This document shows positions 15,545 through 60,631 of a stretch of 64,000 nt of DNA, in pieces. Made by a program: the position numbers and the translations under genes. Within the stretch, counting starts at the first letter, position 1. Each line of letters starts with the position of its first letter. The notes under the pieces are model-generated. The model was given only the letters and a program-made list of their open reading frames with translations, did no database searches and had not been told where the DNA came from. The DNA is from Streptomyces sp. GS7 (GTDB lineage: Bacteria > Actinomycetota > Actinomycetes > Streptomycetales > Streptomycetaceae), in the NCBI RefSeq assembly GCF_009834125.1, contig NZ_CP047146.1, positions 6,751,501 through 6,815,500 on the forward strand, written 5' to 3'.

Positions 15545-15884
15545 CGGCGGAACGCGATACCGACCAGCTTCGAGCGCCGGGGTAGTCCGGCGGCTCGATG
15601 GCGAAATCGGAGAGCAGATACGTTGAAATGGCGATGGGTGGCACCTACTGCCGCTCGGCGACGAACAACCGATCCTGCTCACGGTCGTACGCCGCGGCCC
15701 TCATCACCCACGCGTACTGCCTCGACCAGCGGCCCAGCAGCGTCCGGGATTTATGCAACTCCTGTGCCACCTTCGCAACACTCCGCCCAGGACCAAGATC
15801 GCGGTACACAGCGAACGCCTCGAACGCCTGGGAAGACTCACCGTTCTGCCGCTCCCAGGTCTCCGCAGCAGTCCGGTCCCTCAC
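15545..15884 (-). pseudogene. Internally deleted copy of the phage-like (terminase-associated) gene
   Basis: The first 79 codons from 15884 match the N-terminus of the protein encoded at 47950-48855 ([38 protein letters not shown]). After a TAG the same frame resumes as VPPIAISTYLLSDFAIEPPDYP, which matches MPPSSY...AYLLSDFAVAPTDYP more than 100 residues further along in the intact protein. The middle is therefore deleted and the C-terminus lost. A second, more degraded relic is at 5858-5973. Confidence 0.75.
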
Positions 15885-16140
15885 CGGAAACCTTCTCTCT
15901 CCCCACGCCGCTATTCATCATGCACGAGCGACAGTCACAGCTGTCCCACGGAGCTGACCGTGCCACGGGGGCGCGGTGAGCCAGGCGCGAGGCGCGGGCT
16001 TGTGCGGCGGAGGTGTCATCGGGTACCTCGCGAGCTCTCGTTGGCGGGGGTGCCATTGCGCTCCGCGGCCTCCAGCAGGGCGAAGGTGCGGGCTGACTCT
16101 CCCCTGTCTCGCGTCCCAGCAGGAGGCAGACCAGACAGTC

Positions 16141-35087: not shown

Positions 35088-35978
35088 ATGGCTGAGAAGA
35101 ACCATGCCACGGTGGCAGTCACCGGGGTGACTGGGGCGCTGGGCGGCCGCATCGCGGCCCGACTCGCGGGCCACGGCGTCCCCCAGCTCCTCGTCGGACG
35201 CAGCCCCGATCGCATGCCCGAACTGCCAGGCGCCCAGCGGCGCGGTCCGGCCGCCTACGCCGATGCCGACGCCATGCGCAAGGCGCTCGAGGGCGCGTCG
35301 ACCCTCATCCTGGTCTCCGGACACCGCACAGGGCGCCGGCTGGAGGAACACGCCACCGCAGTCGAGGCCGCGATCGCGGTCGGCGTGGACCGGGTCCTGT
35401 ACGTATCTCTCGTCGGCGCAGCGCCCGCCGCCACCTACACCAACGCCCGCGACCAGTGGCTGACCGAACAGTTCCTGGCAGGGGCCGGGATCCGCCACAC
35501 GGTGCTCCGGGCGGGCTTCTACACCTCGACGCCGGCCGCCCTCGCCAACGAGGAGTTCGTCGTGAGCGGCCCCGCGAGCACCGGCCGGGCCGCCTTCGTC
35601 ACCCACGAGGACATCGCCGACGTGATCACGGCCGTCGCCCTCGACGAGGGTCCCTGCTCCGAGCACGACGGCGCGACCCTTGAGATCACGGGGCCCGAGG
35701 CCCTGACCCTCGACGAAGCGGTCACCAGGATCGCCGCAGCCACCGGCCGGCCCTACCGCTTCGAACCCGAGACCCTCGAGGACGCCTTCACACGGCGATG
35801 GCGACTGGGCATGAGCGGGGAACAGATCGAGACCTGGATCTCGTGGTACCAGGCGATCGAGAGGGGCGAGATTTCCGTGGTCACCGATGTCGTCCCCCGG
35901 CTCACCGGCTCACCAGCGACCCCGATCTCGGACGCAGCCTGGTGGCCCGCGCCGAAGACAGCGCGCGGTACCCGCTAA
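35088..35978 (+). CDS. NmrA-like NAD(P)-binding oxidoreductase
   Basis: A 296-residue atypical short-chain dehydrogenase with N-terminal Rossmann motif (VAVTGVTGALGGRIAARLAG), DADAMRKALEGASTLILVSG, RVLYVSLVGAAP and the substrate region (LRAGFYTSTPAALANEEF, FVTHEDIADVITAVALDEG). It resembles quinone-reductase/azoreductase-like NmrA proteins. ATG 35088 follows GGAGGGA. The stop TAA at 35976-35978 lies at the left end of the IS1380 element, so a few native C-terminal residues may have been replaced. Confidence 0.82.
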   Translation: MAEKNHATVAVTGVTGALGGRIAARLAGHGVPQLLVGRSPDRMPELPGAQRRGPAAYADADAMRKALEGASTLILVSGHRTGRRLEEHATAVEAAIAVGVDRVLYVSLVGAAPAATYTNARDQWLTEQFLAGAGIRHTVLRAGFYTSTPAALANEEFVVSGPASTGRAAFVTHEDIADVITAVALDEGPCSEHDGATLEITGPEALTLDEAVTRIAAATGRPYRFEPETLEDAFTRRWRLGMSGEQIETWISWYQAIERGEISVVTDVVPRLTGSPATPISDAAWWPAPKTARGTR

Positions 35979-37628
35979 TCTCGCGCTTTAACGAAGCGGG
36001 CTGTCCGGCCACTGATCAAGAAAGCAGAAAGTGCCTCTGACCAGTGAGAATGAGGATTGCTGAGGTCTTTGTTCCCGCCGCCGTCGGAGGCAGTTCCCAG
36101 GTGAAGAAGCGTATCGGGTCCTACCCGCGTGTCCGCGTCGAGGCCGGCGGGGCAGTGGTCTCGCGGGCGGGAGCCGTGCTGCTGGTCGACACGGTCCGCA
36201 AGACCGGGCTGGACCAGGCGATATCGGCGGCGCTGTCGCCGTGGCGCAAGCCCCGTGCGGTGCACGATCCGGGTAAAGTCCTGCTGGATGTGGCAGTCGC
36301 GGTCGCACTCGGCGGAGACTGCCTTGCTGACGTGGGAATTGTGCGGGCCGAACCGGGCGTGTTCGGGCCGGTGGCATCCGATCCGACCGTCTCCCGTCTC
36401 ATCGACACCCTCGCCACGGCGGGAGACAAGGCCCTGGCGGCAGTCCGCTCGGCACGCGCTGAGGTCCGTGAATACGTATGGAAGTTGGTCGGTGTCTCGG
36501 CGCCGAATGCCGGCGGACAGGTGATCGTCGATCTGGACGGGGTGCTCGTTCTTGCGCACTCCGAGAAGCAGGACGCCGCCGCGACGTGGAAGAAGACGTT
36601 CGGGCACCACCCGCTGATGGGCTTCGTCGACCACGGAGCGGGCGGCAGCGGAGAGCCGGTCGCGGGCCTGCTGCGGCCGGGCAACGCGGGCAGTAACACC
36701 GCCGCCGACCACATCACCACCGCCGGGCTCGCGCTGGCCCAGCTGCCGAAGAAGTACCGGCGCGGACGCCAGACGCTGATCCGCTGTGATTCGGGCGGTG
36801 GCACCCATGAGTTCGTGGCCTGGCTGACGAAGCGTGGCCGGTGGCTGTCGTACTCGGTCGGGATGACCATCACCGACGCCATCCACCAGGCCGTCCTCAA
36901 GGTTCCCGCGTCCGCCTGGACGGTGGCCGTCGAGCCCGACGGCGAGGTCCGCGACGGTGCCTGGGTGGCCGAGCTGGACGGCGACGTGCTCAAAGACTGG
37001 CCCAAGGGCATGCGGCTGATCGTCCGCAAAGAACGCCCCCATCCCGGCGCCCAGCTGCGCTTCACCGACGCCGACGGGATGCGGCTGACCTGCTTCGCCA
37101 CCAACACCAACAACACACCGATCGCCGCACTGGAGCTACGGCACCGCCAACGTGCCCGCGCCGAGGACCGCATCCGCGCCGCCCGCGCCACCGGCCTACG
37201 CAACCTCCCCTTCCACGACAGTGCGCAGAACCGGATCTGGCTGAAGATCGTCCAGATCGCCCTCGACCTGCTCGCCTGGATGCCGATGCTCGCCCTGACC
37301 GGCCATACCCGTAGATGGGAACCCCGCCGCCTGCGCCTGCGACTCTTCTCCGCCGCGGCCCAACTCGTCACCACAGCCCGCCGCCGGTACCTAAGATTCG
37401 CGGCCCACTGGCCCTGGACCCACCTCATCACGGACGCGACCGAACGGCTCCACGCCCTCCCGAACCCTGGCTGACCAGCAGATCCACCCGTCCCGACGAG
37501 CCCGAACCAGCCCTCCGGAACCGTGGAACCCGGCGCCCCCGACGCGACAGCCGGGCCCTCACCCTGCCCAACAAGCCGAAACGGCCCGCCAGATGAACCA
37601 ACGAGCCGTCACGAAAGATCGAGGCTAA
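35976..37628 (+). mobile_element. IS1380-family insertion sequence
   Basis: About 1.65 kb with one long transposase gene. The left end reads TAATCTCGCGCTTT and the right end, inverted, gives TTAGCCTCGATCTTT, an imperfect terminal repeat. A decayed second left end lies at 32271-32570. The exact ends are uncertain by a few bases. Confidence 0.75.
36101..37474 (+). CDS. IS1380-family transposase
   Basis: A 457-residue DDE transposase. It starts with the family's conserved VKKRIGSYPRVRVE (GTG 36101; the frame is open 19 codons further). Catalytic regions: GGQVIVDLDGVLVLAHSEK (first Asp), RRGRQTLIRCDSGGGTHEF (second Asp), and a C-terminal block LALTGHTRRWEPRRLRLRLF typical of the family's end. 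No internal stop, so probably functional. Confidence 0.88.
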   Translation: MKKRIGSYPRVRVEAGGAVVSRAGAVLLVDTVRKTGLDQAISAALSPWRKPRAVHDPGKVLLDVAVAVALGGDCLADVGIVRAEPGVFGPVASDPTVSRLIDTLATAGDKALAAVRSARAEVREYVWKLVGVSAPNAGGQVIVDLDGVLVLAHSEKQDAAATWKKTFGHHPLMGFVDHGAGGSGEPVAGLLRPGNAGSNTAADHITTAGLALAQLPKKYRRGRQTLIRCDSGGGTHEFVAWLTKRGRWLSYSVGMTITDAIHQAVLKVPASAWTVAVEPDGEVRDGAWVAELDGDVLKDWPKGMRLIVRKERPHPGAQLRFTDADGMRLTCFATNTNNTPIAALELRHRQRARAEDRIRAARATGLRNLPFHDSAQNRIWLKIVQIALDLLAWMPMLALTGHTRRWEPRRLRLRLFSAAAQLVTTARRRYLRFAAHWPWTHLITDATERLHALPNPG

Positions 37629-38254: not shown

Positions 38255-39667
38255 TTGACATGGGCGGCTGAGTGTTACACCGAGAAGCGCGGCTACCCGC
38301 CGTATGACCCGCGGCTGATGGTGCGGCTGCTGATCTACGGCTACACCACCGGCGTCCGCTCCTCCAGGGCGATCGAGTGCCGCCTGGCCGACGATGTCGC
38401 GTTCCGCTTCCTGGCCAGCGGCCAGGCCCCGGACTTCCGCTCCATCGCCCGGTTCCGCCGCCACCTGGACGCACTGGCCGGCCTGTTCACCCAGTCGCTG
38501 CACCTCGCGGCCAAGCTCGGCATGGTCAAGATGGGCCGCGTCGCGCTGGACGGCACGAAACTGGAGGCCAGCGCCTCCAAGCACAAGGCGATGAGCTACG
38601 GCCGCCTGATCGACAAGGAAGTACGCATCGAGGCCGAGATCGCCCAGCTGGAAGCGAAGGCCCAGGACCTGCTGGCCGACGCTGAGGCCGCCGACGAAGC
38701 CGAGGACCAAGCCTTCGGCGTGGACGGCAAGGAGGTGGACCTTCCCGCCGAACTGGACCGGCGTGAGAAGCGCCTGGCCAGGCTGCAGGCCGCCCGCGCG
38801 CAGATCGAGGCCGAGGCCGCCGACAAGGCCCGCGCCCACGCCGAGGACAAAGAACGCCGCCGTCAGGAGCGTGCCAGCAGCATCGACAAGCAGGCCGTCA
38901 CCGACGCTGGCGAGAAGGCCTCCGCCACGGCCCGGCCTAAGCCCAAGGCCCAGGCCAACTTCGCCGACCCCGACTCACGGATCATGAAGAACAGCAACGG
39001 CGCCTACATCCAGGCCTACACCCCCCAGGCCGTCGTCGACGAAGAACACCAGGTCATCACCGCAGCCGACGTGACGACCAACCCCTCCGACGCACTGAAC
39101 TACACCACGATGCTCGACCAGTCCGCGGCGAACACCGGCGTCCACCCCAAGCAGGCCCTGGTCGACGCCGGATACTGCTCCGAGACCAACCTTGAGGCCG
39201 CGCGAGAACGCCAACTCACCTGCGGCACTGACACGTTCATGGCCACCGGCCGACTCGCCCACGACGAGATCGTCCAACTCGCACGTCAGCTGGCCGCCGT
39301 ACCCGATCTGCAACAGTGCGCCGACCGGTCCCCGCAAGCGGCAAAGGTCGCCGACCGAGCCGCCGAGGACGCCAAGAAAGCAGGCCAACCCGCCCCGCCC
39401 GAAGCACCCATGCCGTGGCCCGGCCTGCTCACGGACCATCTCGCTGCTATCGACGCCCACCACGCCGGCACAACCGAACTCACCATCGGCGAGCGGACCG
39501 GAATCACCCACACCCTCTTCGGCCTCATCGGCTACGCCTGCCACCCCGACTACCTCGACCTAGGCGACCACAACGCCCTCGTCCGCGACATCCACCAGCT
39601 CTATCAGGCGGCCGGCGCCGCCGGTCCCCGCGGCCGCCACGACTACGCGCCCCCGAAGTGGACGTAA
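38255..39667 (+). pseudogene. IS1182-family transposase, 5'-truncated
   Basis: About 470 codons of an IS1182 transposase lacking its N-terminus. It begins abruptly at YTEKRGYPPYDPRLMVRLLI, then APDFRSIARFRRH, MVKMGRVALDGTKLEASAS (first Asp), a long coiled-coil-like insert (EAEIAQLEAKAQDLLADAEA), YIQAYTPQAVVDEEHQVITA and ALVDAGYCSETN (second Asp). The usual C-terminal block with the catalytic Glu is not recognisable and the last 75 codons look different. It is therefore inactive. Homologous start at 31595-32140. Confidence 0.78.
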
Positions 39668-47949: not shown

Positions 47950-48855
47950 TCAGACTCCCGTCTGGGTCGTCGTGGCTCGGGCGCCCCACCGCTTCGCCCA
48001 CGTCTGAAGGGCCTCGTCGAGCGTGTGCCCGCCCACAGCCCCCTGGTACTGGAGCTGAAACTTCCAGCCGTCCTCGTTCGACGGGCCGCGCTTGGTCAGC
48101 CGCAGCAGCCCGCGGTACTTCATGCTCACCGGGTTGTTGCTGAACGCCGTCGTGGACAGAGCCCTGACCCTGCGGGAGAACGCCCGCTGGCACAGCAGCT
48201 GCGTCTCCGCGCTCGTGGCGGCCAGCACGATCAGCTTCGACAGCCGCGGGTAGTCCGTCGGCGCGACGGCGAAGTCGGAGAGCAGGTACGCCTCGTCGGG
48301 CGTGTAGCTGCTCGGCGGCATCGCGAAGACACCCGGAATGCGGCCGACGCCGTCCTTGACCGCGACCGCGAGGTTCGCCGCGCCTGGGGCGATGCGAGGA
48401 TTGAGATACCGCGAACGTATGGCGTTGAACTGGCCCGGCTTGAGCATCGACAGCCTCAGCAGTCCGCCCAGTTCCTCGCCGGCACGCAACCGGGGCGCTC
48501 TGACCGGCTCGATCGGCTGGTGGGGAGCGACGATCTGGGTCGGCGCCTCGCTCGCGTAGACGTAAAAGTACGCCTGTGCCAGCTTCGCGTGCCGCCTGGC
48601 GATGTCGCGTCGCGCCTGCCGCTGCTCAGCAAGGAACACCCGGTCCTGCTCACGGTCATACGCCGTTGCTCGCCTCACCCACGCGTACTGCCGCGACCAC
48701 CGGCCCAACAGTGTCCGCGATGTAAGCAACCCCCGTGCCACCTTCGTGACACTGCGCGCAGGGCCGGGATCGCGATACACCGAGATCGCCTCGAACGCCC
48801 GAGGAGACTCATGGCTCTGGCGCTCCCAGGGATCGACGGCACCACGGCCATCCAC
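47950..48855 (-). CDS. Phage-like protein with terminase-small-subunit-type N-terminus
   Basis: A 301-residue protein. Residues 1-95 resemble the DNA-binding region of phage packaging proteins ([57 protein letters not shown]). The rest is unlike known enzymes and contains AYLLSDFAVAPTDYPRLSKL and MKYRGLLRLTKRGPSNEDG. Two degraded relatives lie at 15545-15884 and 5858-5973. Capsid or portal genes are absent, so it is probably a prophage remnant or an island-borne module with the ParB-like gene. Confidence 0.65.
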   Translation of the reverse strand: MDGRGAVDPWERQSHESPRAFEAISVYRDPGPARSVTKVARGLLTSRTLLGRWSRQYAWVRRATAYDREQDRVFLAEQRQARRDIARRHAKLAQAYFYVYASEAPTQIVAPHQPIEPVRAPRLRAGEELGGLLRLSMLKPGQFNAIRSRYLNPRIAPGAANLAVAVKDGVGRIPGVFAMPPSSYTPDEAYLLSDFAVAPTDYPRLSKLIVLAATSAETQLLCQRAFSRRVRALSTTAFSNNPVSMKYRGLLRLTKRGPSNEDGWKFQLQYQGAVGGHTLDEALQTWAKRWGARATTTQTGV

Positions 48856-49397
48856 CGGTCAGCCTTCTTTCTCTCCACGCGCCACCCAGTTTCAGCCACG
48901 TCCAGGCACAGGAGTACGAATCAAGAGGCGGACCTCAGCCAGCAGTACCCCCGCCTTCGGCCGGTGAACCGTCGGCAAGCATCGCCCGCGCGGCTGGCCT
49001 CCGTGTCGGCGGCGAGCACGCCCTGGCCCTTCGACGGCTCGCACGTGGAGCGCAGATCGCGCCGCATCGATGGAAAGCGCACCCACTACCGTCCGAGGGC
49101 CGCAAAGGCTGCACCGCCGGAGCGGCAACCAGACTGAAGCGGGAGTCTTACGCCAGGACGGGAGCGTCGTGGCTCCGGCCTGCGGACGCTGTTCCTGCAT
49201 AGCGGGCGCTGGGCTCAGGGTGAGGGCATCGGGTGAGCACCCAGCTGCCGCTGCCTGTGCTGCCACCTGCCGGGATTCTTCGGGAGCCGACGTCCACGAA
49301 GCACACGCAGGAGCACACGGGGCCACTTCGCCGACCGGAACGAACTAAAGGAATGCTTAGTATATTTACCCACCAAGCGATCCGAGGGGGATAGTTC
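48856..49397. other. Gene-free region upstream of the bacteriocin-locus regulators
   Basis: No supported gene. Its right end has a local AT-rich segment (ACTAAAGGAATGCTTAG then TATATTTAC, 49344-49369) unusual for this DNA, about 30-50 bases upstream of the response regulator, a good promoter candidate. GAGGGGGA is the ribosome site. Confidence 0.5.
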
Positions 49398-50090
49398 GTG
49401 ATTCGCGTCATGGTTGTCGACGACGAACCGCTGCTGCGGACGGGGATGCAGCACATCTTGCGAGCGGAGCCGGACATCGACGTGCCGGTCACTTGCGAGG
49501 GGTGGGAGGCGGTGGCCGCTGCCGAACAGCATCGCCCTGACGTCGTTCTGCTCGACATCCGGATGCCGCGAGTCGACGGGCTGTCCGTGCTTGCCGGCCT
49601 GCGGGGGCAGGCCGATCCCCCTGTGGTGGCCATGCTGACGACGTTCTCCGCAGATGAGGACATCGCGGCCGCTCTACGGGGCGGAGCGGCGGGCTTCCTT
49701 CTGAAGGACACCGCGCCGCAGGAACTGACCCATGCCGTTCGACTGCTGGCGGCGGGCGGAACCGTGTTGTCGCCGACGGCCGCCGACACGGTTCGGCACG
49801 GTTTCCTCAACTCGGTGGCCAGGGCGCCGCAGAAGGCAGGACACGGCGGTGCAGGCGGCGGGGAGGCCGCAGGCGGGCTGACACAGCGCGAGCGGGATGT
49901 GCTCGCACTGCTCGCGGAGGGCCTGTCCAATGCGGAGATCGGGAAGCGACTGCTGATCAGTTCCTCGACGGCCAAGGATCACGTCAGCGCGATTCTGACA
50001 AAGCTCGGGCTCGCCAACCGCATTCAGGCAGCGGTCTACGCCCATCGGCACGCGGTGATACCGGATAGTCCAGCCCCCGTCAGTGTGTGA
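49398..50090 (+). CDS. NarL/LuxR-family response regulator of the bacteriocin locus
   Basis: A 230-residue regulator: receiver (MVVDDEPLLRTGMQHIL, VVLLDIRMPRVDG with the acceptor Asp, FLLKDTAPQEL) and LuxR helix-turn-helix (LTQRERDVLALLAEGLSNAE, STAKDHVSAILTKLG). A Gly-rich linker of about 20 residues joins them. GTG 49398 follows GAGGGGGA. The kinase start overlaps its stop (TGATG). It probably controls the downstream operon, by position. Confidence 0.92.
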   Translation: MIRVMVVDDEPLLRTGMQHILRAEPDIDVPVTCEGWEAVAAAEQHRPDVVLLDIRMPRVDGLSVLAGLRGQADPPVVAMLTTFSADEDIAAALRGGAAGFLLKDTAPQELTHAVRLLAAGGTVLSPTAADTVRHGFLNSVARAPQKAGHGGAGGGEAAGGLTQRERDVLALLAEGLSNAEIGKRLLISSSTAKDHVSAILTKLGLANRIQAAVYAHRHAVIPDSPAPVSV

Positions 50091-51271
50091 TGAAGCGTTC
50101 ACGTCTCGCGGCCGATGCCGGGACGGTGGCGCTGGCCGCCGTAGAGATCCCCGCGGTGTGGAGCCTGATCGGACCAGTGGAGCTGGTGCTGTACATCGTC
50201 ACCGCCCTGCTGCTCGTGGTGTGGCGCTACTGGCCGGTGCCGGTGCTGCTGCTGACCTTGCCTGCCGCCATGACAGGGCTGCTGCTGGCACCGATGATCG
50301 CGATGTGCCATGTCGCCTTCGGAGTGCGCCGCCGGGCCGTGATCGGGGCCTGTGCGGGACTGCTGTTCGCGGTGGCTCTGGTGCCGTGGCGTCCGATGCA
50401 GACCGAGGTGTGGTCCTACGAGGACGGGCTGCGCGCCGTGATCTCGTCGGCGCTGCTGGCGCTGGGGCCCACAGCGGTCGGGGCGCTGGCCCGTACGCGA
50501 CGTGAACTGGCCGGGCGCCTAGATGAGTTGATGCACAGCCGGGAGCGGGAACGGAAGCTGCTCGCCCGTTCGGCGGTGACGGAGGAGCGGGCGCGTCTTG
50601 CCCGGGAAATGCACGATGTGGTCGCCCACAACATCAGTCTGATCGCTGTGCAGGCGGGGGCCCTGCGGAGCACGGCACACACAGACGCGTCGCGAGAGAC
50701 GGCTTCGACGATCGGGGAGCTGAGCCGCCGCACCCTCCATGAACTGCGGGCGATGGTGAGTGTGCTGCGAAGCGGGGAGGACCCCGGTCGGGCGGGCGCC
50801 CATGAAGGAACGGTTGAAATGGCGGTGGATGGGCCTGGGTTGGCGGAGCTGCCCGCGCTGCTGCGGGTGAGCGGGGACCACGTACGGTACGAGGCCGCGG
50901 TGCCTGCACGTCGTTGGCCGAAGCGGGTGGAGCAGGCCGCATACCGCATCGTTCAGGAGGCGGTGACCAATGCGCTTAAGCACGCGACGGGGGCCTGTGT
51001 CACGGTGGCGTTGCGGGAGAGGGCCGGGAGTGAGGCACTGCTCGTCGAGGTGCGAAACGGTCCCGGGAGCGCGGCGGGGACGGGCGCCGCTGCGTACGGC
51101 GAGGAGAGCCGGCCGCTGCCTTCGTCCGGGTTCGGGCTGATAGGGCTGCGGGAACGGGCCGAAGCCCTCGGAGGGTGGCTGGAGGCGAGGCCGACGGCCG
51201 ACGGCGGCTTCTCGGTGCGGGCGGCTCTGCCGGCTCCGACCGGAGGGACCCCGCCGGTCGGCGGGGTCTGA
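50090..51271 (+). CDS. NarL-type sensor histidine kinase of the bacteriocin locus
   Basis: A 393-residue membrane kinase. Four or five N-terminal helices (VALAAVEIPAVWSLIGPVEL, YIVTALLLVVWRYW, VLLLTLPAAMTGLLLAPMIA, VIGACAGLLFAVALVPW, VISSALLALGPTAVGALA) without a large outer domain, HisKA_3 (RLAREMHDVVAHNISLIAVQ) and HATPase_c (AYRIVQEAVTNALKHATG, GFGLIGLRERAEAL). ATG 50090 shares a base with the regulator stop. An intramembrane-type sensor could detect membrane stress or the peptide itself; this is inference. Confidence 0.92.
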   Translation: MKRSRLAADAGTVALAAVEIPAVWSLIGPVELVLYIVTALLLVVWRYWPVPVLLLTLPAAMTGLLLAPMIAMCHVAFGVRRRAVIGACAGLLFAVALVPWRPMQTEVWSYEDGLRAVISSALLALGPTAVGALARTRRELAGRLDELMHSRERERKLLARSAVTEERARLAREMHDVVAHNISLIAVQAGALRSTAHTDASRETASTIGELSRRTLHELRAMVSVLRSGEDPGRAGAHEGTVEMAVDGPGLAELPALLRVSGDHVRYEAAVPARRWPKRVEQAAYRIVQEAVTNALKHATGACVTVALRERAGSEALLVEVRNGPGSAAGTGAAAYGEESRPLPSSGFGLIGLRERAEALGGWLEARPTADGGFSVRAALPAPTGGTPPVGGV

Positions 51272-51344
51272 GAACAGACGGTCGGCGGATGTACGGGGGC
51301 GTCCCGGCTTGGCAGCATTTCGGGGGTTCGGCCCGAACCACGCC

Positions 51345-51375
51345 GGTCCCGCCTTGAGGAAAGCAAGGCGGGACC
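51345..51375. terminator. Strong hairpin terminator between regulators and bacteriocin operon
   Basis: A perfect 11-bp inverted repeat GGTCCCGCCTT / AAGGCGGGACC with a 9-base loop, 74 bases after the kinase stop. It separates the two-component transcript from the precursor operon, whose promoter must lie between 51376 and 51440. Confidence 0.8.
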
Positions 51376-51456
51376 GACACCCATGGCCATGGGTTTTCCA
51401 GCATAAACACGTCCCCTGAACGCAGGACCGGCACACCCGGTCCTGGGAGGTATGTC

Positions 51457-51726
51457 ATGAAGAAGTCCTTCACTCGCGCGGCCGTCGCAGGCGCGAGCAT
51501 CGCCGTCGCCGGCAGCGCCCTGCTGTTCCTGGGCGTCGCCGCCCCCGCCGTCCTCACCGCGTTCTTCGGCTTCACGTCGGCGCAGGCCACGGGCGCGGCG
51601 ACCGCGATCATGGCTGGTATGGACGTCGCCACCGCGCTGTCCATCTTCGGTGGCGCCACCGCCGTCGGCGGCCTCGGCCTCACCCTGCTGCGCAAGGCCG
51701 TCGGCAAGCAGGCCATCGTCAAGTAA
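51457..51726 (+). CDS. Circular bacteriocin precursor (uberolysin/carnocyclin-like)
   Basis: An 89-residue hydrophobic peptide precursor. The last 55 residues have the saposin-like circular bacteriocin pattern: GFTSAQATGAATAIMAGMDV, then ATALSIFGGATAVGGLG (compare SIISILGGVTVGLSG in carnocyclin A, recalled from memory) and a cationic final helix LLRKAVGKQAIVK. The leader of about 30 residues is long (MKKSFTRAAV, hydrophobic core SIAVAGSALLFLGVAA); the cleavage site is unknown. ATG 51457 follows GGGAGG. A SpoIIM/DUF95 gene and ABC transporters follow, the standard neighbours of such bacteriocins. A simple small membrane protein is the alternative. Confidence 0.75.
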   Translation: MKKSFTRAAVAGASIAVAGSALLFLGVAAPAVLTAFFGFTSAQATGAATAIMAGMDVATALSIFGGATAVGGLGLTLLRKAVGKQAIVK

Positions 51727-51797
51727 CGCCGATTCCGGGGCCGCTGCGTCGCGTAACCGCCGCGCAGCGGCCCCGGTCGTACTCGCCGGGAAGCTCC

Positions 51798-52406
51798 ATG
51801 GCAGCCCTTGAAATCCCCGAACAACACGCCGCACACCGGACCTCGGACGGATCCCCACTCTGGCTCCGGTTCCTGGGCGGGCGCGCACGTCTACTGCGTC
51901 GCCAGCGGACCGCGGTCCTCCTCGGCAATCTGCTGTGGCTGGGGCCCATCGCGGTCGGCTTCGCCGTGGGCGACCGGCTCGACCTCGGCGTCGAGCAGCG
52001 CGCCGCACACGCCGGAGGTCACCTGTGGTGGTCGATCCTCAGCACGAACGCGGGTGTCGCGCTGCTGGCCTTCGCCGGTGTCCTCACGTTTGGCCTGGCC
52101 ACGATCGCCTTCAGCCTGGTGTCCGGGCTACTGACGGGGGTGGGGCTCGGCCAGGCCACGGCGCTCGCCGGGTGGGGCGACCTGGCCCGGCACGTCCTGC
52201 CGCACGCATGGCTGGAACTCCCCTCCATCGGTATAGCCGTTGGCGCTGGTCTGGTACCGCTGATCGCAGTCACCAGCTGGCTGGTCGGCAGGAAGAAGGC
52301 TCGGCCGAAGCTCCAGCACGTGCTCAGCGACTCCTTCGGACTCCTGGGGATGTCGCTCTTTCTGCTCCTCATCGCCGCGACGATCGAGACCTGGGTGAGT
52401 ACCTGA
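51798..52406 (+). CDS. SpoIIM/DUF95-family membrane protein
   Basis: A 202-residue integral membrane protein with five or so helices (AVLLGNLLWLGPIAVGFAVG, ILSTNAGVALLAFAGVLTFG, IAFSLVSGLLTGVGLGQATA, GIAVGAGLVPLIAVTSWLVG, LGMSLFLLLIAATIETWV) and the family motif LPHAWLELPSIGIA. DUF95 proteins are required for maturation, secretion or immunity in known circular bacteriocin operons (AS-48, carnocyclin, circularin). ATG 51798 is 71 bp after the precursor; the stop overlaps the next start (TGATG). Confidence 0.82.
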   Translation: MAALEIPEQHAAHRTSDGSPLWLRFLGGRARLLRRQRTAVLLGNLLWLGPIAVGFAVGDRLDLGVEQRAAHAGGHLWWSILSTNAGVALLAFAGVLTFGLATIAFSLVSGLLTGVGLGQATALAGWGDLARHVLPHAWLELPSIGIAVGAGLVPLIAVTSWLVGRKKARPKLQHVLSDSFGLLGMSLFLLLIAATIETWVST

Positions 52407-53098
52407 TGCACACGTCCCCGTGGGAAACGTCCGCAAAAGTCTCCGCGGACGCGTCCTCCTCTGGAATGACTGCTCCGGCTGTTCCGGCCGGGGCTGCCCC
52501 GCCGACCGCATCACCGGCGTCGTCCGCGCATCCTGCCGACCCGGCCGCCCCCGGGATTCCGCGCGGCGTCACGCTCGCCAGGTGGGCGCAGCTCGGCGGA
52601 CTGACGGCTTGTGTCGTGCTGTTGCCCGTTCTGATGTGGCAGTTCCGGGATCTCTACCGCTCCGAAGCAGTGACCAAGCTGCCTGGGGGAACAGCGGGAC
52701 AGCTGGACGTGGCCGCCTGGGCGGCCTGGGCGGCGAGTTCGCTCTTCAACGGCGTTGCCTACCTCGTGCTGGTCCTGGCGCTCGGGGCACTGGGCGCCGC
52801 CTGCTGCCGCTGGGCAGGCGCCACGGTCGACTTCCGCGGTCTGCGGTGGGCTGTCGGTGCGGTGACTGCCGGCTATCTCGCCCTGCGGCTGGGTGTGTTC
52901 GTACTGCTGTCGCTGGCCGGGGCAAGTGACCGTGCGCTGCTCGACTGGCTCTCCGCCCCCGAGCCGAGCCTGCTGTTGCTCGTGGCCGCTACCGCCGTCG
53001 TACTGGGTCGCGCCGCGCCCGAGCTGAGGCCGCTGCGCAGGGCGGCGTGTGCGACCGCGCCCGCCGCCCTGCTCGGACTGCTCTTCGGCGTGTTGTAA
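52406..53098 (+). CDS. Membrane protein of the bacteriocin operon
   Basis: A 230-residue protein: a polar Ala/Pro/Ser-rich N-terminal 50 residues, then helices at LGGLTACVVLLPVLMW, SSLFNGVAYLVLVLALGALG, VGAVTAGYLALRLGVFVLLS and SLLLLVAATAVVLGRAA, and a final hydrophobic end (ALLGLLFGVL). I do not recognise the family. Coupled to the SpoIIM-like gene by a one-base overlap. Accessory maturation or immunity functions are plausible by position. Confidence 0.7.
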   Translation: MHTSPWETSAKVSADASSSGMTAPAVPAGAAPPTASPASSAHPADPAAPGIPRGVTLARWAQLGGLTACVVLLPVLMWQFRDLYRSEAVTKLPGGTAGQLDVAAWAAWAASSLFNGVAYLVLVLALGALGAACCRWAGATVDFRGLRWAVGAVTAGYLALRLGVFVLLSLAGASDRALLDWLSAPEPSLLLLVAATAVVLGRAAPELRPLRRAACATAPAALLGLLFGVL

Positions 53099-53153
53099 GC
53101 CCGACAACGTCACCATCCGCGCCCGCCCCGCACGAGAAAGCATCCCCCCACCC

Positions 53154-53597
53154 ATGACTGTTCCCCACACTGCCCGGACCTCCGCCGGTTCCGCGCGGTG
53201 GCGGCGATTCGCCACGTTCGCAGTTCTTCTCACCACCGCGCTCGCCTGGTGCCGGGCGGCGCTCTACACCCTGCAGCGGGACGAGGTACGAGCCGCGGTG
53301 GCCGGTTCACCGCGCCTATCCGACACCAACCGGGCTTTCGTCGCCGAAGCGCAGGACATGCTCCAGTGGGCCTGGTGGGGCTTTCCGGCGCTACTGCTGG
53401 TGCTGACCGCCATCGCGCTGGTGCTGCGCGTGGGGCAGTTCCTGCTCATCGGCGTCAGCGGCATGGTGGGACCGGCGCTGGCGGCGAGCGGTTTCCTGTT
53501 CCCGGGGACCGTTCCGTTGCAGGTGCTGGCGGCGCTGTTCTTCGTCACGCTGGTGTGCTCCGTAGCCGCGACAGTGCTGCCCGGACGGCCAGGATGA
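53154..53597 (+). CDS. Small membrane protein of the bacteriocin operon, immunity candidate
   Basis: A 147-residue protein with an N-terminal helix (FATFAVLLTTALAWCRAALY), a 35-residue outer loop, and three hydrophobic segments (WGFPALLLVLTAIALVLRVG, FLLIGVSGMVGPALAASGFL, LQVLAALFFVTLVCSVAATVL). It is the smallest membrane protein in the operon. Its stop overlaps the next start (ATGA). Circular bacteriocin immunity proteins are small, hydrophobic and basic, so this is a candidate, but without sequence similarity I can point to. Confidence 0.65.
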   Translation: MTVPHTARTSAGSARWRRFATFAVLLTTALAWCRAALYTLQRDEVRAAVAGSPRLSDTNRAFVAEAQDMLQWAWWGFPALLLVLTAIALVLRVGQFLLIGVSGMVGPALAASGFLFPGTVPLQVLAALFFVTLVCSVAATVLPGRPG

Positions 53598-55321
53598 CGC
53601 ACCGTACCGCGGTGCCACAGCACCCCATGACGGGGGCGCGGCGGTCCCGGACGCCCGGCCGCCACGCCCGCGCGGCGTTCGCGCTGGTACTCGCCGACGG
53701 ACGACGCAAGCTCAACCTGCTTCAGGGGCGGGCCACCCCGCAGTGGGCGCAGATCGCCACTGCCGTCTGCTTCGTCCTGGGGGCAGCCGCAGCCCTCGCC
53801 CTGGCAGTCGGCGCGGGGCTGCTCGCCGCGCACACCCTCCCCGTCACCTCCGCCGACCTGGGCGGCTTGGCGCGCTACGCCTGGCTCCCCGCGGTACTCG
53901 TGGTCGCCTCCATGATCGCCGGCGTCCGGCCGAACGAGATCCGGCTCGTCGTGGACCCGCCGGACCGGGAGGTGCTGCTGTCCCTCCCCATCACGCCCGG
54001 GGACCTGCTGTTCGTGCGCGCGGTGGGGCCCGCCCTGCTGGCGGCCGGCGGGGTCGCCGTGACGGCCTGTGCGTTCCTCACCACCTGGCTGAGCGGGTCA
54101 CCTGCCGGCAGCCAACTCCTCCCCGCGGCACTCACGCTCGTCGCGGGACTGCTGCTTGTCAGCCTGGCCCTACGGCTGGCGCTGACCGGGTTGCTGGCGC
54201 TTGCCCGGGACGGCGCCGCCCGACTGCGAACCCTGCTGCTGGCAGCGGGCGGCGGGGTCGCCGTGGGGATCGCGATCGCCCCGTTCACCGAAGGGATGCG
54301 GGCACAGGGCCCGTTGGCCCAGGCACTGCCGCGCCTCGCCGGCCAGGCCCTCAACGCCGTACGGCCGGGCTGGTGGGACGCCATGGTGGGCGGCGGCGCG
54401 TACCGCATCGCGGCCGTTGCCGCCGCGACGGCCCTGCCACCCGCCGCCGTCGCGCTCATCCTGCTGCGGCGGGCCGCCCTCACCCGCGTCCTGCGGGTCG
54501 GCGGGGCTCCCCCTGCCGCGATGCTGCGCACCGGGCGCGCGGCCAGGGGGACGCACCGGTGGGACCGGCTGCACCAAAGGTCCGTGCTCATGGTGTTCCT
54601 GGCCAAGGATCTGAGGGCGGCACTGCGCGGTCCCGCAGCCGCCACCCTCGGGCTGCGGCGCTGTCTGCTGGGCGGGATCGCGCTGCTCGGAACGGGAGCC
54701 GGCCATGCGCTGGGCACCGGGGGCGGCAGTCCGCTGGCCATCCCCACTGCCACCGCGGTGGGGGCACTGGTGGGCGGCGTGCTGCTGGTGGCCGACGAGG
54801 CGGTGCAGGTCGCCGGGGTCGAGGCGGAGCGGAAAGCGTGGAACGCTCTCCTTCAATCCCCACTGTCCACCGGGCAGTTGAAGAGCTGCAAGGCGGTGTC
54901 CTTCGCGGTCGTCGTCGCGGGCTGCGTCGCACCGGGGGCCGTGGGCTGGGCCCTGCTCACCGGTGGGACCGGGCCCGACCTCGTCCCGCTTCTCCTCACC
55001 GCTCCCGCCGCCGCGTGCGCGGTCGGGGCGGCCGCCGTGGCCACATCCACCGTGATGCCGCCCGCCGAGCACAGCGGCCAGGGCCGCATCACCCGCTCCC
55101 CCGCCGCGGGGGTCCTCCAGGCGACCCTGACCGGTGCCGTCATGCTCCCCACCGTCGCACTGATCCCGCTGCTGCCGGGCGGTGAACCACTGCTCCGCGC
55201 GCTCCCTCCCCTGGTGACGTGCCTGGCCCTGCTGTCGGCAGCCGCGGTGCTCCTCGCCCGTTCCCCTTCCTCCCGCTACCCCTCCGCACCCCCCGTCGAC
55301 CGAAAGGCGGCACCCCGTTGA
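53594..55321 (+). CDS. ABC transporter permease, large (bacteriocin export/immunity)
   Basis: A 575-residue polytopic membrane protein with about 12 hydrophobic segments in two halves, separated by a soluble stretch near residue 330 (RTGRAARGTHRWDRLHQRSV). Motifs include RLVVDPPDREVLLSLPITPG near the N-terminal third, as in ABC-2-like exporter permeases. ATG 53594 overlaps the previous gene; the end overlaps the ATPase gene. Together with the ATPase at 55318 it should form one exporter. Confidence 0.72.
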   Translation: MTHRTAVPQHPMTGARRSRTPGRHARAAFALVLADGRRKLNLLQGRATPQWAQIATAVCFVLGAAAALALAVGAGLLAAHTLPVTSADLGGLARYAWLPAVLVVASMIAGVRPNEIRLVVDPPDREVLLSLPITPGDLLFVRAVGPALLAAGGVAVTACAFLTTWLSGSPAGSQLLPAALTLVAGLLLVSLALRLALTGLLALARDGAARLRTLLLAAGGGVAVGIAIAPFTEGMRAQGPLAQALPRLAGQALNAVRPGWWDAMVGGGAYRIAAVAAATALPPAAVALILLRRAALTRVLRVGGAPPAAMLRTGRAARGTHRWDRLHQRSVLMVFLAKDLRAALRGPAAATLGLRRCLLGGIALLGTGAGHALGTGGGSPLAIPTATAVGALVGGVLLVADEAVQVAGVEAERKAWNALLQSPLSTGQLKSCKAVSFAVVVAGCVAPGAVGWALLTGGTGPDLVPLLLTAPAAACAVGAAAVATSTVMPPAEHSGQGRITRSPAAGVLQATLTGAVMLPTVALIPLLPGGEPLLRALPPLVTCLALLSAAAVLLARSPSSRYPSAPPVDRKAAPR

Positions 55322-56037
55322 TCACGATGCGCGGACTGTCCGCAGGCCATGGCGAACACGCCGTACTCCGTGGCGTCGACGCCGAGTTGACGGCGGGCGA
55401 GTTCGTCCACCTCGTAGGTGAGAACGGCTCCGGCAAGAGCACCCTGCTCCGAGTCGCCGCCGGGCTCCACAAACCCAGCGGCGGCGAGATACGCATCGGC
55501 GGCCACCCCCCGGAGGCGCCCGAGGCGAAAGCCCTGCGGGGCTACGTCCAGGACGAACCCCCGCTCTACGACTACCTCAGCGTGCACGAACAACTCGCCT
55601 TCACCGCCCGCCTGTGGGGGGTACCGATAACCGGGGCTCTGGGGACACTGGAACGGTTCGGCGCGGACCAGTGGACCGGACACCTCATCCGCGAACTCTC
55701 CCTGGGCACCCGAAAAAAGGTCGGGCTGGCCGTGGCCACACTGCACAACCCGCGGCTGATCCTGCTCGACGAGCCGTTCAACGGCTTGGACCACGCAGCC
55801 GTGCGCGAACTCACCGCCCTACTGACCGAGTGGAAGCGCGACGGCCGGACGGTGCTCGCGGTCAGCCACGGACACCACGGACTCCACGGCCTCCTCGACC
55901 GCAGACTGCACCTGAAGGAAGGACTGCTTGTGGAGGGGGGCTCGGTGCCCGACCTCATTGCGGACGGCCCGGCCCCGGACCCGCGCACGACCCCACTCCC
56001 CGAGGACTCCGCCCAGACCTCCGAGGACTCCCAGTGA
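55318..56037 (+). CDS. ABC transporter ATP-binding protein (first)
   Basis: A 239-residue ATPase: Walker A GENGSGKST (about residues 38-46), Q-loop VQDEPPLYDY, signature LSLGTRKKVGLA (a variant of LSGGQ), Walker B LILLDEPFNG and switch His in VSHGH. TTG 55318 is chosen because it overlaps the permease stop as TTGA and is 7 bases from AAGGCGG; ATG 55327 is the alternative. Pairs with the permease at 53594. Confidence 0.85.
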   Translation: MITMRGLSAGHGEHAVLRGVDAELTAGEFVHLVGENGSGKSTLLRVAAGLHKPSGGEIRIGGHPPEAPEAKALRGYVQDEPPLYDYLSVHEQLAFTARLWGVPITGALGTLERFGADQWTGHLIRELSLGTRKKVGLAVATLHNPRLILLDEPFNGLDHAAVRELTALLTEWKRDGRTVLAVSHGHHGLHGLLDRRLHLKEGLLVEGGSVPDLIADGPAPDPRTTPLPEDSAQTSEDSQ

Positions 56038-56984
56038 TCGACATCCAAGACCTGACCAAGCACTACGGCGACCGGACCGCCGTGGACGCCCTCACCTTCC
56101 GCGTCGAGCCGGGCGCGGTCACCGGCTTCCTCGGCCCCAACGGCGCGGGCAAATCCACCACCATGCGGATGGTGCTCGGGCTCGACCGCCCCACAGCAGG
56201 CCGGGCCACCGTCCTCGGGCGGCCGTACACCGAGATCCGATACCCGCTGAACGAGGTCGGGGCGCTGCTCGACGCCCGCGCCATGCACAGCGGCCGCTCT
56301 GCACGCGGCCATCTGCACGTCCTGGCCCAGAGCAACCGGATCCCCACCCGCCGGGTCGACGAGGTACTGGCCCAAGTCGGCCTCTACGAGGTCGCGGGAA
56401 GGCGGGTCAAGGGCTTCTCCCTCGGTATGCGTCAGCGGCTCGGTATCGCAGCGGCCCTCCTCGGGGATCCCGCCGTCCTGCTCCTGGACGAACCGGTCAA
56501 CGGCCTTGACCCCGAGGGCATCCGATGGGTGCGCGATCTCATGCGCAGCCTGGCCGCCGAGGGGCGCACGGTACTGGTCTCCAGCCACCACATGAGCGAG
56601 ATGGCGCTGACCGCCGACCACCTCGTCGTCATCGGCCGCGGCCGCCTCCTCGCCGACACCACGGTCAAGGAATTCGTGGCCGGCCACGCCCGCCGGGTCG
56701 TCCACGTCCGCACCCCGCACCGGGACCGCCTCACCACGCTGCTGGACGGCGCCGGCATCAACCACGTCCTTTCGCCAGGGGACGACGAGCACAGCCTCCA
56801 GGCATACGACACCGAACCCGCAGCCGTAGGCGACCTGGCCGCCTCAGCGGGCCTGGCCCTACACGAACTACGGCCGGAACATGCCTCGTTGGAGGAGGCG
56901 TACCTCGGCGTCGTGGCGGGCGACACCGAATACCGCACCGCCCTCACCGGCGTCCCAGCCGTCCCCCCTCACCAGGGAGCATGA
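56034..56984 (+). CDS. ABC transporter ATP-binding protein (second, DrrA/BcrA-like)
   Basis: A 316-residue ATPase with the drug/peptide-resistance pattern: Walker A GPNGAGKSTT, signature FSLGMRQRLGIA, Walker B VLLLDEPVNGLDPEG, switch His in VSSHHMSEM, and a C-terminal extension of about 95 residues (DUF4162-like) including LRPEHASLEEAYLGV. GTG 56034 overlaps the previous stop (GTGA). With the permease at 56988 it resembles self-protection transporters. Confidence 0.88.
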   Translation: MIDIQDLTKHYGDRTAVDALTFRVEPGAVTGFLGPNGAGKSTTMRMVLGLDRPTAGRATVLGRPYTEIRYPLNEVGALLDARAMHSGRSARGHLHVLAQSNRIPTRRVDEVLAQVGLYEVAGRRVKGFSLGMRQRLGIAAALLGDPAVLLLDEPVNGLDPEGIRWVRDLMRSLAAEGRTVLVSSHHMSEMALTADHLVVIGRGRLLADTTVKEFVAGHARRVVHVRTPHRDRLTTLLDGAGINHVLSPGDDEHSLQAYDTEPAAVGDLAASAGLALHELRPEHASLEEAYLGVVAGDTEYRTALTGVPAVPPHQGA

Positions 56985-56987
56985 GCC

Positions 56988-57794
56988 ATGACCCGCCCCC
57001 TCACCACCGTGCCCGGCGGCCCCTCCCTCCTCCGCGCCGTCCTGCTCTCCGAGTTCACCAAGCTCCGCACAGTCCGTTCCACCGCCTGGACACTGGCCTC
57101 CACCACGGTCATCACCGTCGTCACCGGCACCCTCCTCTGCCTCCTCACCCGCTACGCCGCCCACGAGATGACGGCCGCCGACCGCGCGACACTCGATCCC
57201 ACCGCGACCAGTCTGTCCGGCATGGTCCTGGGCCAACTCGCCATAATCCTCTTCGGGGTTCTCGCCGCCTCGGGCGAGTTCGCCACCGGCATGCTGACCG
57301 CATCCGTCCAAGCAGTGCCTCAGCGCGGCCTGCTGCTCACCTGCAAGGCCGCGATCGTCGGCACCGTCGCCCTCCTGACCGGCTGCCTCACCTCGTTCAC
57401 GGCCTTCCTCATCGGCCAGGCGACCCTCGGCAGCCTTGCCGCCTCCCTCGGTGACCCCGGTGTCCTCCGCGCCGTCCTCGGCGGCGGCCTCTACATGGCG
57501 TCGCTCGCCCTCTTCGCCCTGGGTATCACCATGGCCCTGCGCACGTCGGTCCTCGCCCTGGGCATCCTCATCCCCTTCTTCTTCCTCATCTCCCCCCTCC
57601 TCGGCGCTCTCCCCGCCACCTCCCGGTTCGCCGCCTACCTCCCGGACGCTGCCGGCTCCAGAATCACCGAGGTCCATCCCGCGCCCGGCCCCCTCGGCCC
57701 CTGGCCCGGCTTCGGCGTCCTGACGCTGTGGGTGGCCATGGCACTGGCGATGGCTTACGCGACGCTGCGAGGAAGGGATGTACGGCAGGGCTGA
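56988..57794 (+). CDS. ABC-2-type permease (bacteriocin immunity type)
   Basis: A 268-residue membrane protein with six helices: LLSEFTKLRTVRSTAWTLAS as the N-terminal amphipathic start, LGQLAIILFGVLAASGEFAT with the family's GEFATGML, then ALLTGCLTSFTAFLIGQAT, LYMASLALFALGITMALRT, VLALGILIPFFFLISPLLG and GFGVLTLWVAMALAMAYATL. ATG 56988 is 3 bp after the ATPase stop. Probably protects the host from its own peptide. Last gene of the operon. Confidence 0.85.
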   Translation: MTRPLTTVPGGPSLLRAVLLSEFTKLRTVRSTAWTLASTTVITVVTGTLLCLLTRYAAHEMTAADRATLDPTATSLSGMVLGQLAIILFGVLAASGEFATGMLTASVQAVPQRGLLLTCKAAIVGTVALLTGCLTSFTAFLIGQATLGSLAASLGDPGVLRAVLGGGLYMASLALFALGITMALRTSVLALGILIPFFFLISPLLGALPATSRFAAYLPDAAGSRITEVHPAPGPLGPWPGFGVLTLWVAMALAMAYATLRGRDVRQG

Positions 57795-58757: not shown

Positions 58758-59027
58758 CCGCTCACACCCGATGTGTTGCTCACGTGTCTCTGCTGGCACC
58801 GGGAAGTCTCTGCGCCTCGTGAGCTTGCCACCACATTCCTCCCGGAAGTTGGGGGCCGCCCCACGCTGTCGGCATGTGCTGGTAAGTGCTGGTGTGATCG
58901 TTCCGTAATGGGGGCGGGGCGTAGTGGTAAGCGCGGTGGTAAGGAGTCTCGGGTGAGCTGAAGGCGAGGGTTCCCAGCCCTCCTCGCGGCCGCTTCGCCG
59001 CGGGCCCTTCCACGCCCGGGAGCTTTG

Positions 59028-59924
59028 ATGCCCACCCCCTCCTCCACGGCTTCATCCCACCGCGCAGCGCCGGTGCGGGAGCAGGCACTGGCTGCGCTGT
59101 TCGTGCACCGTGCCGCGGAGACCGAGCAGTTGCGCCGCTTGCTGGCGCCTCCGCCTGAACTGAGGTACCTGCGGCGTTGCCTTCGTGATCTCCGAGGGCT
59201 CGGTCTGGTCCACAGTGTTACCCGGGCTCACTGTCCCAGCGTCTGGTCACTTACCGATCAGGGCGCCCGGAACGTCGCGAGCTGGCCCGAGTTCGCGGGG
59301 CGGCGCCTTCGTCGGCATACGACGATGGGGGCACGCAGTGCCCACACGCTGGCCGTGACAAGGACGGCGCTGGCGTTCATCGAAGATGCGCGGCGGCGGG
59401 GCGACGAGGTCACGGCCTTGGACTGGACCCCGGAAGTGGCGCATCCGATCCGCGACGGTGCCGGTGTCGGAGACCGCGCGCTGATCGCTGATGCTCTGCT
59501 GCGCTACACCCGAACCGCGCCCACGCGGGCGATGCTGCGTGCCTTCGTCGAAGTGGACCGCGCGACAGAGTCGTCCGAGCGTCTGGCGTCGAAGGTGATC
59601 ACCTACGCGCGGTTCTACGATCACATCCCGGTCGTTGGTCGGCGCAGTGCGGCGGATCTGTCGGGGATGCGTGCCTGGCAGCGGTCGTACCTCGTCTTCC
59701 CCCGACTTCTGTTCGTCCTGACCGGAGCCGGCCGGCAGGCGCTTCTCCATCGGGTCGCGGATCTGCGAGCGATGGTGCGTGGGCATCCGTCGACGGCGCG
59801 GTTCGCCGAGGACGTGCCTGTTGGTGCCGCGGTCCTGGAGGAGTTGGAGGAGCTTGGGGCATCGGCTCCGGTGTGGTGGTCGCTCGACGGCCGCACCGGT
59901 CGGCGCAGCTGGATGGAACTATGA
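59028..59924 (+). CDS. Replication-relaxation-family protein
   Basis: A 298-residue protein with an N-terminal winged helix (EQALAALFVHRAAETEQLRR, LRYLRRCLRDLRGLGLVHSV, HCPSVWSLTDQGARN) and a C-terminal part with DADALLRY-like ADALLRYTRTA and AFVEVDRATESSERLASKV, matching the pattern of replication-relaxation proteins on Streptomyces plasmids and integrative elements. ATG 59028 follows GGGAG. Its stop is 9 bp before the displaced chelatase fragment, at the right edge of the island. Confidence 0.75.
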   Translation: MPTPSSTASSHRAAPVREQALAALFVHRAAETEQLRRLLAPPPELRYLRRCLRDLRGLGLVHSVTRAHCPSVWSLTDQGARNVASWPEFAGRRLRRHTTMGARSAHTLAVTRTALAFIEDARRRGDEVTALDWTPEVAHPIRDGAGVGDRALIADALLRYTRTAPTRAMLRAFVEVDRATESSERLASKVITYARFYDHIPVVGRRSAADLSGMRAWQRSYLVFPRLLFVLTGAGRQALLHRVADLRAMVRGHPSTARFAEDVPVGAAVLEELEELGASAPVWWSLDGRTGRRSWMEL

Positions 59925-59933
59925 CCCGCCGTC

Positions 59934-60501
59934 CGGCCGAGGGCGTACGGAATGTGGTGGCGCTGCCGCTCCTCCTCACCCGCGCCTTTCACGCGAAGTC
60001 CGACATCCCCGCGGTACTGCGGGAGGCCGCCGCGCGGCTGCCCCGGCTCACCGTCCACCAGGCCGATGTCCTCGGCCCCTCCCCCCTCCTGACCGGCGCC
60101 CTGGAACGCCGACTGGAAGAAGCCGGGCTGCGGCCCGGCGACCACCGCACGACCGGGATCGTCCTGGCCTCGGCGGGCTCCTCAGACCCGGAGGCGATCG
60201 CAGCGATCGCTCAAACCGCGCGGGAGTGGCAGCGCACCGCCCAATGGTGCGCCGTGCGACCTGCGTTCGCCTCCGCATCCCTTCCCCGCACGGCCGACGC
60301 CGTACGAGCCCTACGAGCCGAAGGCATCCAGCGGGTCGCCGTCGCCCCGTACGTCATCGCACCCGGCTTCCTCCCGGACCGCATCGCCGCCGGCGCCCGC
60401 GAAGCCCGCGCCGACATCCTCGCCCCGGTCCTCGGCCCCGCCCCCGAACTGGCCCGGCTGCTCCTGCGACGCTACGACCAAGCCGTCCGCGCGGGCGCCC
60501 G
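59934..60501 (+). repeat. Long direct repeat, right copy
   Basis: Second copy of 4251-4818, same orientation and no gaps. Left of it the sequence switches at once to the replication-relaxation gene. Right of 60501 the two gene ends diverge but both close with a TGA at the same distance. Confidence 0.93.
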
Positions 60502-60529
60502 AGGAAACGCGGCACCGCTGGCCGCCTGA
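59934..60529 (+). pseudogene. 5'-truncated sirohydrochlorin chelatase copy
   Basis: About 197 codons corresponding to residues 59-256 of the chelatase at 4076, from EGVRNVVALPLLLTRAFHAK to the stop, ending NAAPLAA instead of DLTALAA. The N-terminal half-motif AHGSRDPRH is missing, so it should be inactive. An in-frame ATG at 59873 belongs to the preceding gene's sequence. It is probably the original 3' end, displaced by the insertion. Confidence 0.85.
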
Positions 60530-60631
60530 GGGCGACCCGCGGGGCCGGCCGCCGCGGCGCCGAGCGCTCAACCCGCCGCGGCCGGCCCCCCGTTCGGTGT
60601 CCGCCGCAGCGCCGGCCGCAGCCCCGGTGCC

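Follow-up and report, generated by a model that had tools for sequence, protein, structure and literature searches.

A probable circular-bacteriocin-type gene cluster related to carnocyclin A on a mobile-looking island of Streptomyces sp. GS7

The stretch of DNA analysed here (the window, 64,000 nucleotides) spans positions 6751501–6815500 of the single-contig genome of Streptomyces sp. GS7, which is 9,067,183 bases long. Between positions 49398 and 57794 its plus strand carries a compact set of genes in which an 89-residue peptide is followed by a SpoIIM (formerly DUF95) membrane protein, further membrane proteins and two ABC units, and which we interpret as a probable circular-bacteriocin-type cluster. 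The peptide gene (51457–51726) is preceded by a Shine–Dalgarno-like GGGAGGT and is present as a single copy in the host genome. Family profiles and hhalign divide its product into a predicted leader (residues 1–32) and, from the alignment to NKR-5-3B and AS-48, a predicted core peptide Leu33–Lys89 of 57 residues encoded by 51553–51723. The SpoIIM protein (51798–52406, 202 residues; PF01944, E = 3.6e-16) comes next, together with the small membrane proteins C (52406–53098, 230 residues) and D (53154–53597, 147 residues), of which D is a candidate immunity protein. The large membrane protein E (53594–55321, 575 residues) is the probable ABC-2-like permease partner of the ABC ATPase F (55318–56037; PF00005, E = 3.6e-24), as judged from weak matches of its relatives and from its conserved position. 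The second ABC unit consists of the ATPase G (56034–56984), which among the NCBIfam models comes closest to a lantibiotic-protection ATPase (TIGR03740, E = 1.5e-58, short of that model's cut-off), and its partner, the permease H (56988–57794), which weakly matches ABC2_membrane_4 (E = 0.043). Upstream of the peptide gene lies a two-component pair made up of a NarL/LuxR-type response regulator (49398–50090; PF00072, E = 4.2e-26; PF00196, E = 3.7e-17) and a HisKA_3 sensor histidine kinase (50087–51271; PF07730, E = 1.3e-16; PF02518, E = 2.2e-10).

All eight operon genes in the window, the precursor gene included, are uninterrupted open frames, and the reading frames and the sequence place every gene, the two-component pair included, where a preliminary description of this DNA had put it. 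That description also claimed overlapping stop–start junctions from 51798 to 56037. Four of the five are present (SpoIIM/C, D/E, E/F and F/G); the fifth is not, as C ends at 53098 and D begins at 53154, 55 nucleotides apart. The gap between G and H is three nucleotides. What had been called a perfect terminator between the kinase and precursor genes is indeed a perfect 13-nucleotide inverted repeat (51344–51376, arms 51344–51356 and 51364–51376; −28.6 kcal/mol, z = −4.6), and it is not followed by a run of T. A larger hairpin, absent from the preliminary description, occupies the gap between the precursor and SpoIIM genes (51735–51776, 19-nucleotide arms that are 89% complementary; −43.3 kcal/mol, z = −3.95) and may favour the precursor transcript. 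The LPHAWLELP stretch is present in the SpoIIM protein as described. The pattern LPHAxxELP is a general signature of SpoIIM and is therefore not specific to bacteriocin clusters.

Carnocyclin A (PDB entry 2kjf) is the best match of the precursor in the Protein Data Bank (PDB), both for the single sequence and for all three family profiles that were used. With the window sequence alone, phmmer returns two matches up to E = 10, the better of which is carnocyclin A (E = 0.096, query residues 37–88). A protein search yields four homologues, three of them in Streptomyces (97, 80 and 81% identical) and one in a Longispora metagenome-assembled genome (64%), and genome searches add more distant Streptomyces relatives that are 32–52% identical in their best segments. 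Family profiles of eight, 12 and 32 rows, the last corresponding to 31 distinct sequences of which several are closely related to each other, were searched against the PDB and place carnocyclin A first with E-values of 1.9e-4, 1.6e-5 and 4.3e-5, respectively. The top three matches of the 12-row profile among 177,635 PDB sequences are all circular bacteriocins, with AS-48 (0.014) and NKR-5-3B (0.02) following carnocyclin A. In the single-sequence search, the part aligned with carnocyclin A begins close to the ring start, runs up to the basic end and includes the Ser-Ile-x-Gly-Gly-x-Thr stretch pointed out in the preliminary description, which corresponds to residues 62–68 of the window peptide. 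We take carnocyclin A to be a member of the circularin A/uberolysin family. Alignment of the precursor profile with the AS-48 precursor using hhalign spans the whole core (E = 8.3e-6, probability 83.5%).

The curated models reach part of this family. At E ≤ 1, PF09221 matches 15 of the 32 aligned rows (best 8.8e-7) and TIGR03651 matches ten (best 7.3e-6); the four TIGR03651 matches inspected in detail score 20–24 bits, all below the cut-off of 30.7. For ten of the 28 database proteins related to the precursor, a PF09221 label had been precomputed. Widening the protein search with the 32-row profile, with scoring of the 7981 candidates that had most words in common, added neither new sequences nor any named Firmicute peptide. 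The idea that the peptide resides on a plasmid or phage was considered and rejected, as the window peptide has no match in either collection; P0028 has none among the plasmids.

The genes that accompany the precursor recur in the same order in other Streptomyces. Seven loci from named Streptomyces genomes (L005–L011) were compared with the window: the order precursor–SpoIIM–C–D–E is kept in all seven, and F and G come next in the six loci that are not cut by a contig end, with protein identities to the window of 29–69% in the best segments. As L008 and L009 are 96.7% alike in DNA and L010 and L011 85% alike, the seven loci represent about five lineages, and recurrence across them makes the gene order more than a chance arrangement. 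C and D of L010 and L011 are recognized by profile only (C with E = 5.3e-8, D with about 1e-14). Second-round profiles give too favourable E-values to rows that are part of the model; both of these loci lie outside the profiles concerned. D of L010 is also weakly matched by the single sequence (0.0008). L010 and L011 have profile relatives of H in the corresponding position, and in L005, L006 and L009 an open frame that resembles a permease by eye stands at the position of H. A relative of the response regulator is nearby in five of the seven loci (59–60% identical in L008 and L009), and a relative of the kinase in two, again L008 and L009 (42–44% identical). SpoIIM, F and G are spread over several frames in L011 (8382–13560) and E is so in L006 (8274–11625), which suggests decay or sequencing error in those loci. 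The precursor profile picked up five further loci, in all of which a SpoIIM relative adjoins the precursor and a C relative follows. Three of them are identical to L005, L006 and L010; the new ones are L014 and L016, and L016 is 91% like L005.

The limits of the core are suggested by two landmarks in the alignments. Leu33 coincides with residue 1 (Leu1) of mature NKR-5-3B in the 12-row profile alignment and, with hhalign, with the Met before AKEFGIP in AS-48, which we take to be the mature start of AS-48. Leu is found at position 33 in 31 of the 32 rows and Pro three residues upstream in 30, and the core has a higher mean majority fraction (0.63) than the leader (0.51). Together these suggest a leader of residues 1–32 and a core Leu33–Lys89, with the predicted cleavage site between them. 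Counted from Leu33, the inferred core is 60 residues long in 26 rows, which is also the length of the carnocyclin A chain in the PDB, 57 residues in five rows including the window and 59 residues in one. The window core has a net charge of +3 and a GRAVY of 0.96. Closed into a ring, Leu33–Lys89 would have a monoisotopic mass of 5493.99 Da, and as a linear peptide 5512.00 Da; rings starting at the neighbouring residues would come to 5593.06 Da (Val32) and 5380.90 Da (Thr34). Known leaders comprise 2–35 residues and known cores 58–70 residues (PMC9703936), and a leader range of 2–48 residues is given in PMC8659200. Circular bacteriocins have a saposin-like fold of four or five helices. For the window peptide, the first of two AlphaFold models, of low confidence, shows a long N-terminal helix and, beyond it, helices at residues 41–52, 57–68 and 73–88.

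Of the 32 rows, 23 end in Ala, six in Lys and one each in Asn, Arg and Gly; the end of the window peptide is Lys89. According to PMC8659200, Trp or Tyr is the terminal residue of most known groups and Ala that of two, and a hydrophobic end is possibly needed for closing the ring. Lys89 of the window is not such a residue, and the source gives the requirement as possible and not as proven. The eight rows ending in Lys, Arg or Asn speak for a product that, in the window clade only, is linear or is trimmed at its C-terminus before closure, in other words a saposin-like linear antibacterial peptide, and a helical fold is also common to leaderless linear bacteriocins (PMC11580447). We consider such a product unlikely, since the window keeps the SpoIIM gene and the gene order of its Ala-ending relatives and has a leader-like region before the aligned core. 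The leaderless class itself (aureocin A53 type) was examined and rejected: its members are described in PMC11580447 as having neither a leader nor a class-defining SpoIIM/DUF95 protein in the cluster, whereas the window has 32 leader-like residues before the aligned core and a SpoIIM gene.

Support for a circular-bacteriocin-type cluster also comes from the accompanying genes. The minimum cluster, as set out in PMC8534725, consists of a precursor, a DUF95 (SpoIIM) protein and an ATP-binding protein; the window holds the precursor, the PF01944 protein (E = 3.6e-16) and two PF00005 ATPases. The role of SpoIIM in ring closing is called presumed in PMC6131525. When the leucocyclicin Q cluster lost its SpoIIM protein, mature ring stayed inside the cells (as cited in PMC7132975), so that export may be as much the task of SpoIIM as ring closing. 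Known circular bacteriocins have a dedicated small cationic hydrophobic immunity protein (PMC6131525), and C and D, two small, hydrophobic membrane proteins that match no Pfam or NCBIfam family, are candidates for this function. F is 27% identical over 168 residues to the ATPase of the AS-48 cluster. E itself has no family; of its five aligned relatives two match PF12730 and one matches PF12698, weakly (E = 0.007–0.017). These likenesses make E/F the first choice for the exporter, and the lantibiotic-protection ATPase as best match of G makes G/H the first choice for the immunity pump. This division is a soft one, as TIGR03740 is also the second-best NCBIfam match of F (E = 5.4e-31), and it could be the other way round. 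Profiles of E and SpoIIM gave nothing useful against the PDB.

Compared with the AS-48-type cluster of Enterococcus faecalis pPD1 (NZ_KT290268.1), the window shares the precursor, the SpoIIM protein, a separate ATPase and a second ABC unit, and several of the Streptomyces relatives share the basic K-G-K/R-K/R-A-V-I-A-like end of AS-48. The gene order is different, however, and the 56-residue gene and RND-type adaptor of the AS-48 cluster are not seen here. Compared with carnocyclin A, the window peptide differs in its inferred core of 57 residues, its C-terminal Lys, its being missed by the curated models and its actinomycete source.

Several observations weigh against a circular-bacteriocin-type cluster. 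Taken alone, the window peptide matches neither TIGR03651 nor PF09221 in Pfam and NCBIfam scans and is therefore not placed in the curated TIGR03651 subfamily; the TIGR03651 search suggested in the preliminary description gives matches for the ten rows of relatives mentioned above and none for the window peptide. In the PDB searches carnocyclin A alone reaches significance, and the profile matches below it are weak, mixed and unstable in rank: an unrelated TRIC channel (E = 0.012) outranks AS-48 (0.22) in the eight-row search, and in the 32-row search a cadherin peptide (0.14) ranks below NKR-5-3B (0.024) and above AS-48 (0.17). The inferred core of 57 residues lies outside the 58–70 residues of the known ones in PMC9703936, a lower limit that is decided by one residue. 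Both AlphaFold models are of low confidence (mean pLDDT 57.6 and 54.7), and Foldseek found no match with E ≤ 0.001 for them. The similarity between the SpoIIM protein and that of AS-48 is weak (hhalign probability 21%, E = 0.001), and E was rejected as the counterpart of the AS-48 large membrane protein of similar length (hhalign probability 0.1%). Finally, Pfam and NCBIfam scans revealed no cyclase or leader protease; having no recognizable one is usual in known clusters according to PMC8659200.

On balance, the class assignment made in the preliminary description is supported by precursor-family homology and conserved synteny, and not by experiment. Judged from sequence, we put at about three in four (0.77) the probability that the locus is a circular (head-to-tail cyclised) bacteriocin-type cluster of a Streptomyces/Kitasatospora lineage related to carnocyclin A.

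Window-type precursors are distributed sporadically. A single-sequence search finds them in four of 199 genomes of relatives, and profile searches find them in six of 394 genomes of the family, both counts including this genome, and in one of 396 genomes across the phylum, which is this one. The profile searches scored 13 first-look candidates for each of the genomes listed, so that these counts may be lower bounds; the genome samples may overlap. This distribution bears on the possibility that the product is a membrane-active or signalling peptide for the producer itself, for example in development, that is sensed by the adjacent two-component system and is no weapon. Such a role would suit the two-component pair that adjoins the precursor here and in L008 and L009, and the regulator relative near five of the seven loci. 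It is nevertheless very unlikely: presence on an island and in six of 394 family genomes suits an accessory weapon better than development, and ATPase G is closest to lantibiotic-protection ATPases.

The PF09221 profile matches four of the 396 genomes of the phylum, three of them over its cut-off, and misses the present genome. The three over the cut-off (L018–L020) belong to one other actinobacterial family with genomes of about 3 Mb. Their peptides are NKR-5-3B-like by eye and have Trp as last residue, and flanks of about 1.5 kb contain no match to the window-type SpoIIM. Like the window peptide these are actinobacterial circular-bacteriocin-type cores, but they lie over the PF09221 cut-off. 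They seem to form a separate actinobacterial circular-bacteriocin lineage, perhaps that of the five propionibacterial clusters reported by an earlier survey (PMC5695211). Another survey lists two precursors from Actinobacteria (PMC8534725).

The bacteriocin-type cluster is enclosed by a direct repeat of about 612 bp (4244–4855 and 59927–60537, 95.6% identical). The right copy lies within a CbiX-family (chelatase) frame (PF01903) and the left copy in the frame 4076–4846. Just inside the right repeat stands a replication-relaxation gene (59025–59924; PF13814, E = 4.1e-22). Genes of this family occur in integrative or plasmid-like elements of actinomycetes. Two transposase genes of different families (36044–37474, DDE group 1; 38255–39667, DUF772/DDE) are also found between the repeats. 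From the repeat copies, the replication-relaxation gene and the transposase genes the cluster looks as if it sits on a mobile island of about 55–56 kb, with the repeats resembling its edges. Two separate searches for an empty site, one per flank and each over 31 genomes, were of little help, as the right-hand gene gave a long match in one relative only (G008). The island also contains the only predicted tRNA of the window, a tRNA-Leu (CAA) at 35643–35712 on the minus strand. A phage GNAT-like domain protein is encoded at 47950–48855 on the minus strand (PF22559, E = 4.5e-46), and the DNA of its N-terminal part (48597–48880) has a 78% identical copy at 15629–15908. A silent or decaying bacteriocin cluster with no product in this strain, as might be expected from an island with transposases and other mobile-element genes and from the genes spread over several frames in L011 and L006, is the least probable of the alternatives and very unlikely, given that all eight operon genes of the window are uninterrupted and that the precursor is 97% identical to the Streptomyces database record P0001.

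Two Streptomyces relatives, P0009 (by NCBI) and P0012 (by UniProt), already bear the name circular bacteriocin. They belong to the same profile family as the window peptide (43 and 31% identical) but, unlike it, carry a precomputed PF09221 label and an Ala end. The nearest relatives (P0001–P0003) are annotated 'hypothetical protein'. Among the matches listed in a search of the open-licence literature, a body without subscription journals and preprints, no paper on a Streptomyces circular bacteriocin was recognized by its title or the start of its abstract. We rate as new the distinct lineage outside the curated models with its shorter core and charged end, and as standard the core homology and the core gene set.

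By analogy with known clusters, a circular-bacteriocin-type locus would work as follows. The two-component system would switch on the operon, and the 89-residue precursor would lose its hydrophobic leader of roughly 32 residues. SpoIIM and the E/F unit would then help to join the two ends of the helical core Leu33–Lys89 and to export it, while G/H, probably with C and/or D, would protect the producer, the roles of E/F and G/H possibly being swapped. Outside the cell the cationic hydrophobic ring would be expected, as in its family, to damage the membranes of Gram-positive neighbours. Ring formation, export, immunity and antibacterial activity are all ascribed to the locus on this footing.

A more specific proposal, which we hold tentatively and at somewhat below even odds, is that the window clade makes a 57-residue ring closed via its charged C-terminal Lys, within a Streptomyces/Kitasatospora lineage that has its own conserved SpoIIM–C–D–E–F–G machinery and often a two-component switch. 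If true, such a ring would be smaller than the 58–70 residues described and would break the apparent rule of hydrophobic ring-closing residues. The enzyme that closes circular bacteriocins is stated to be not known in PMC8659200. A compact and conserved actinomycete gene set, in which relatives differ at the ring-closing residue (Ala versus Lys, Arg or Asn), would offer a natural comparison of what closing needs. The gene set further hints at a little-described reservoir of stable ring peptides in Streptomyces, a genus known for its small-molecule antibiotics.

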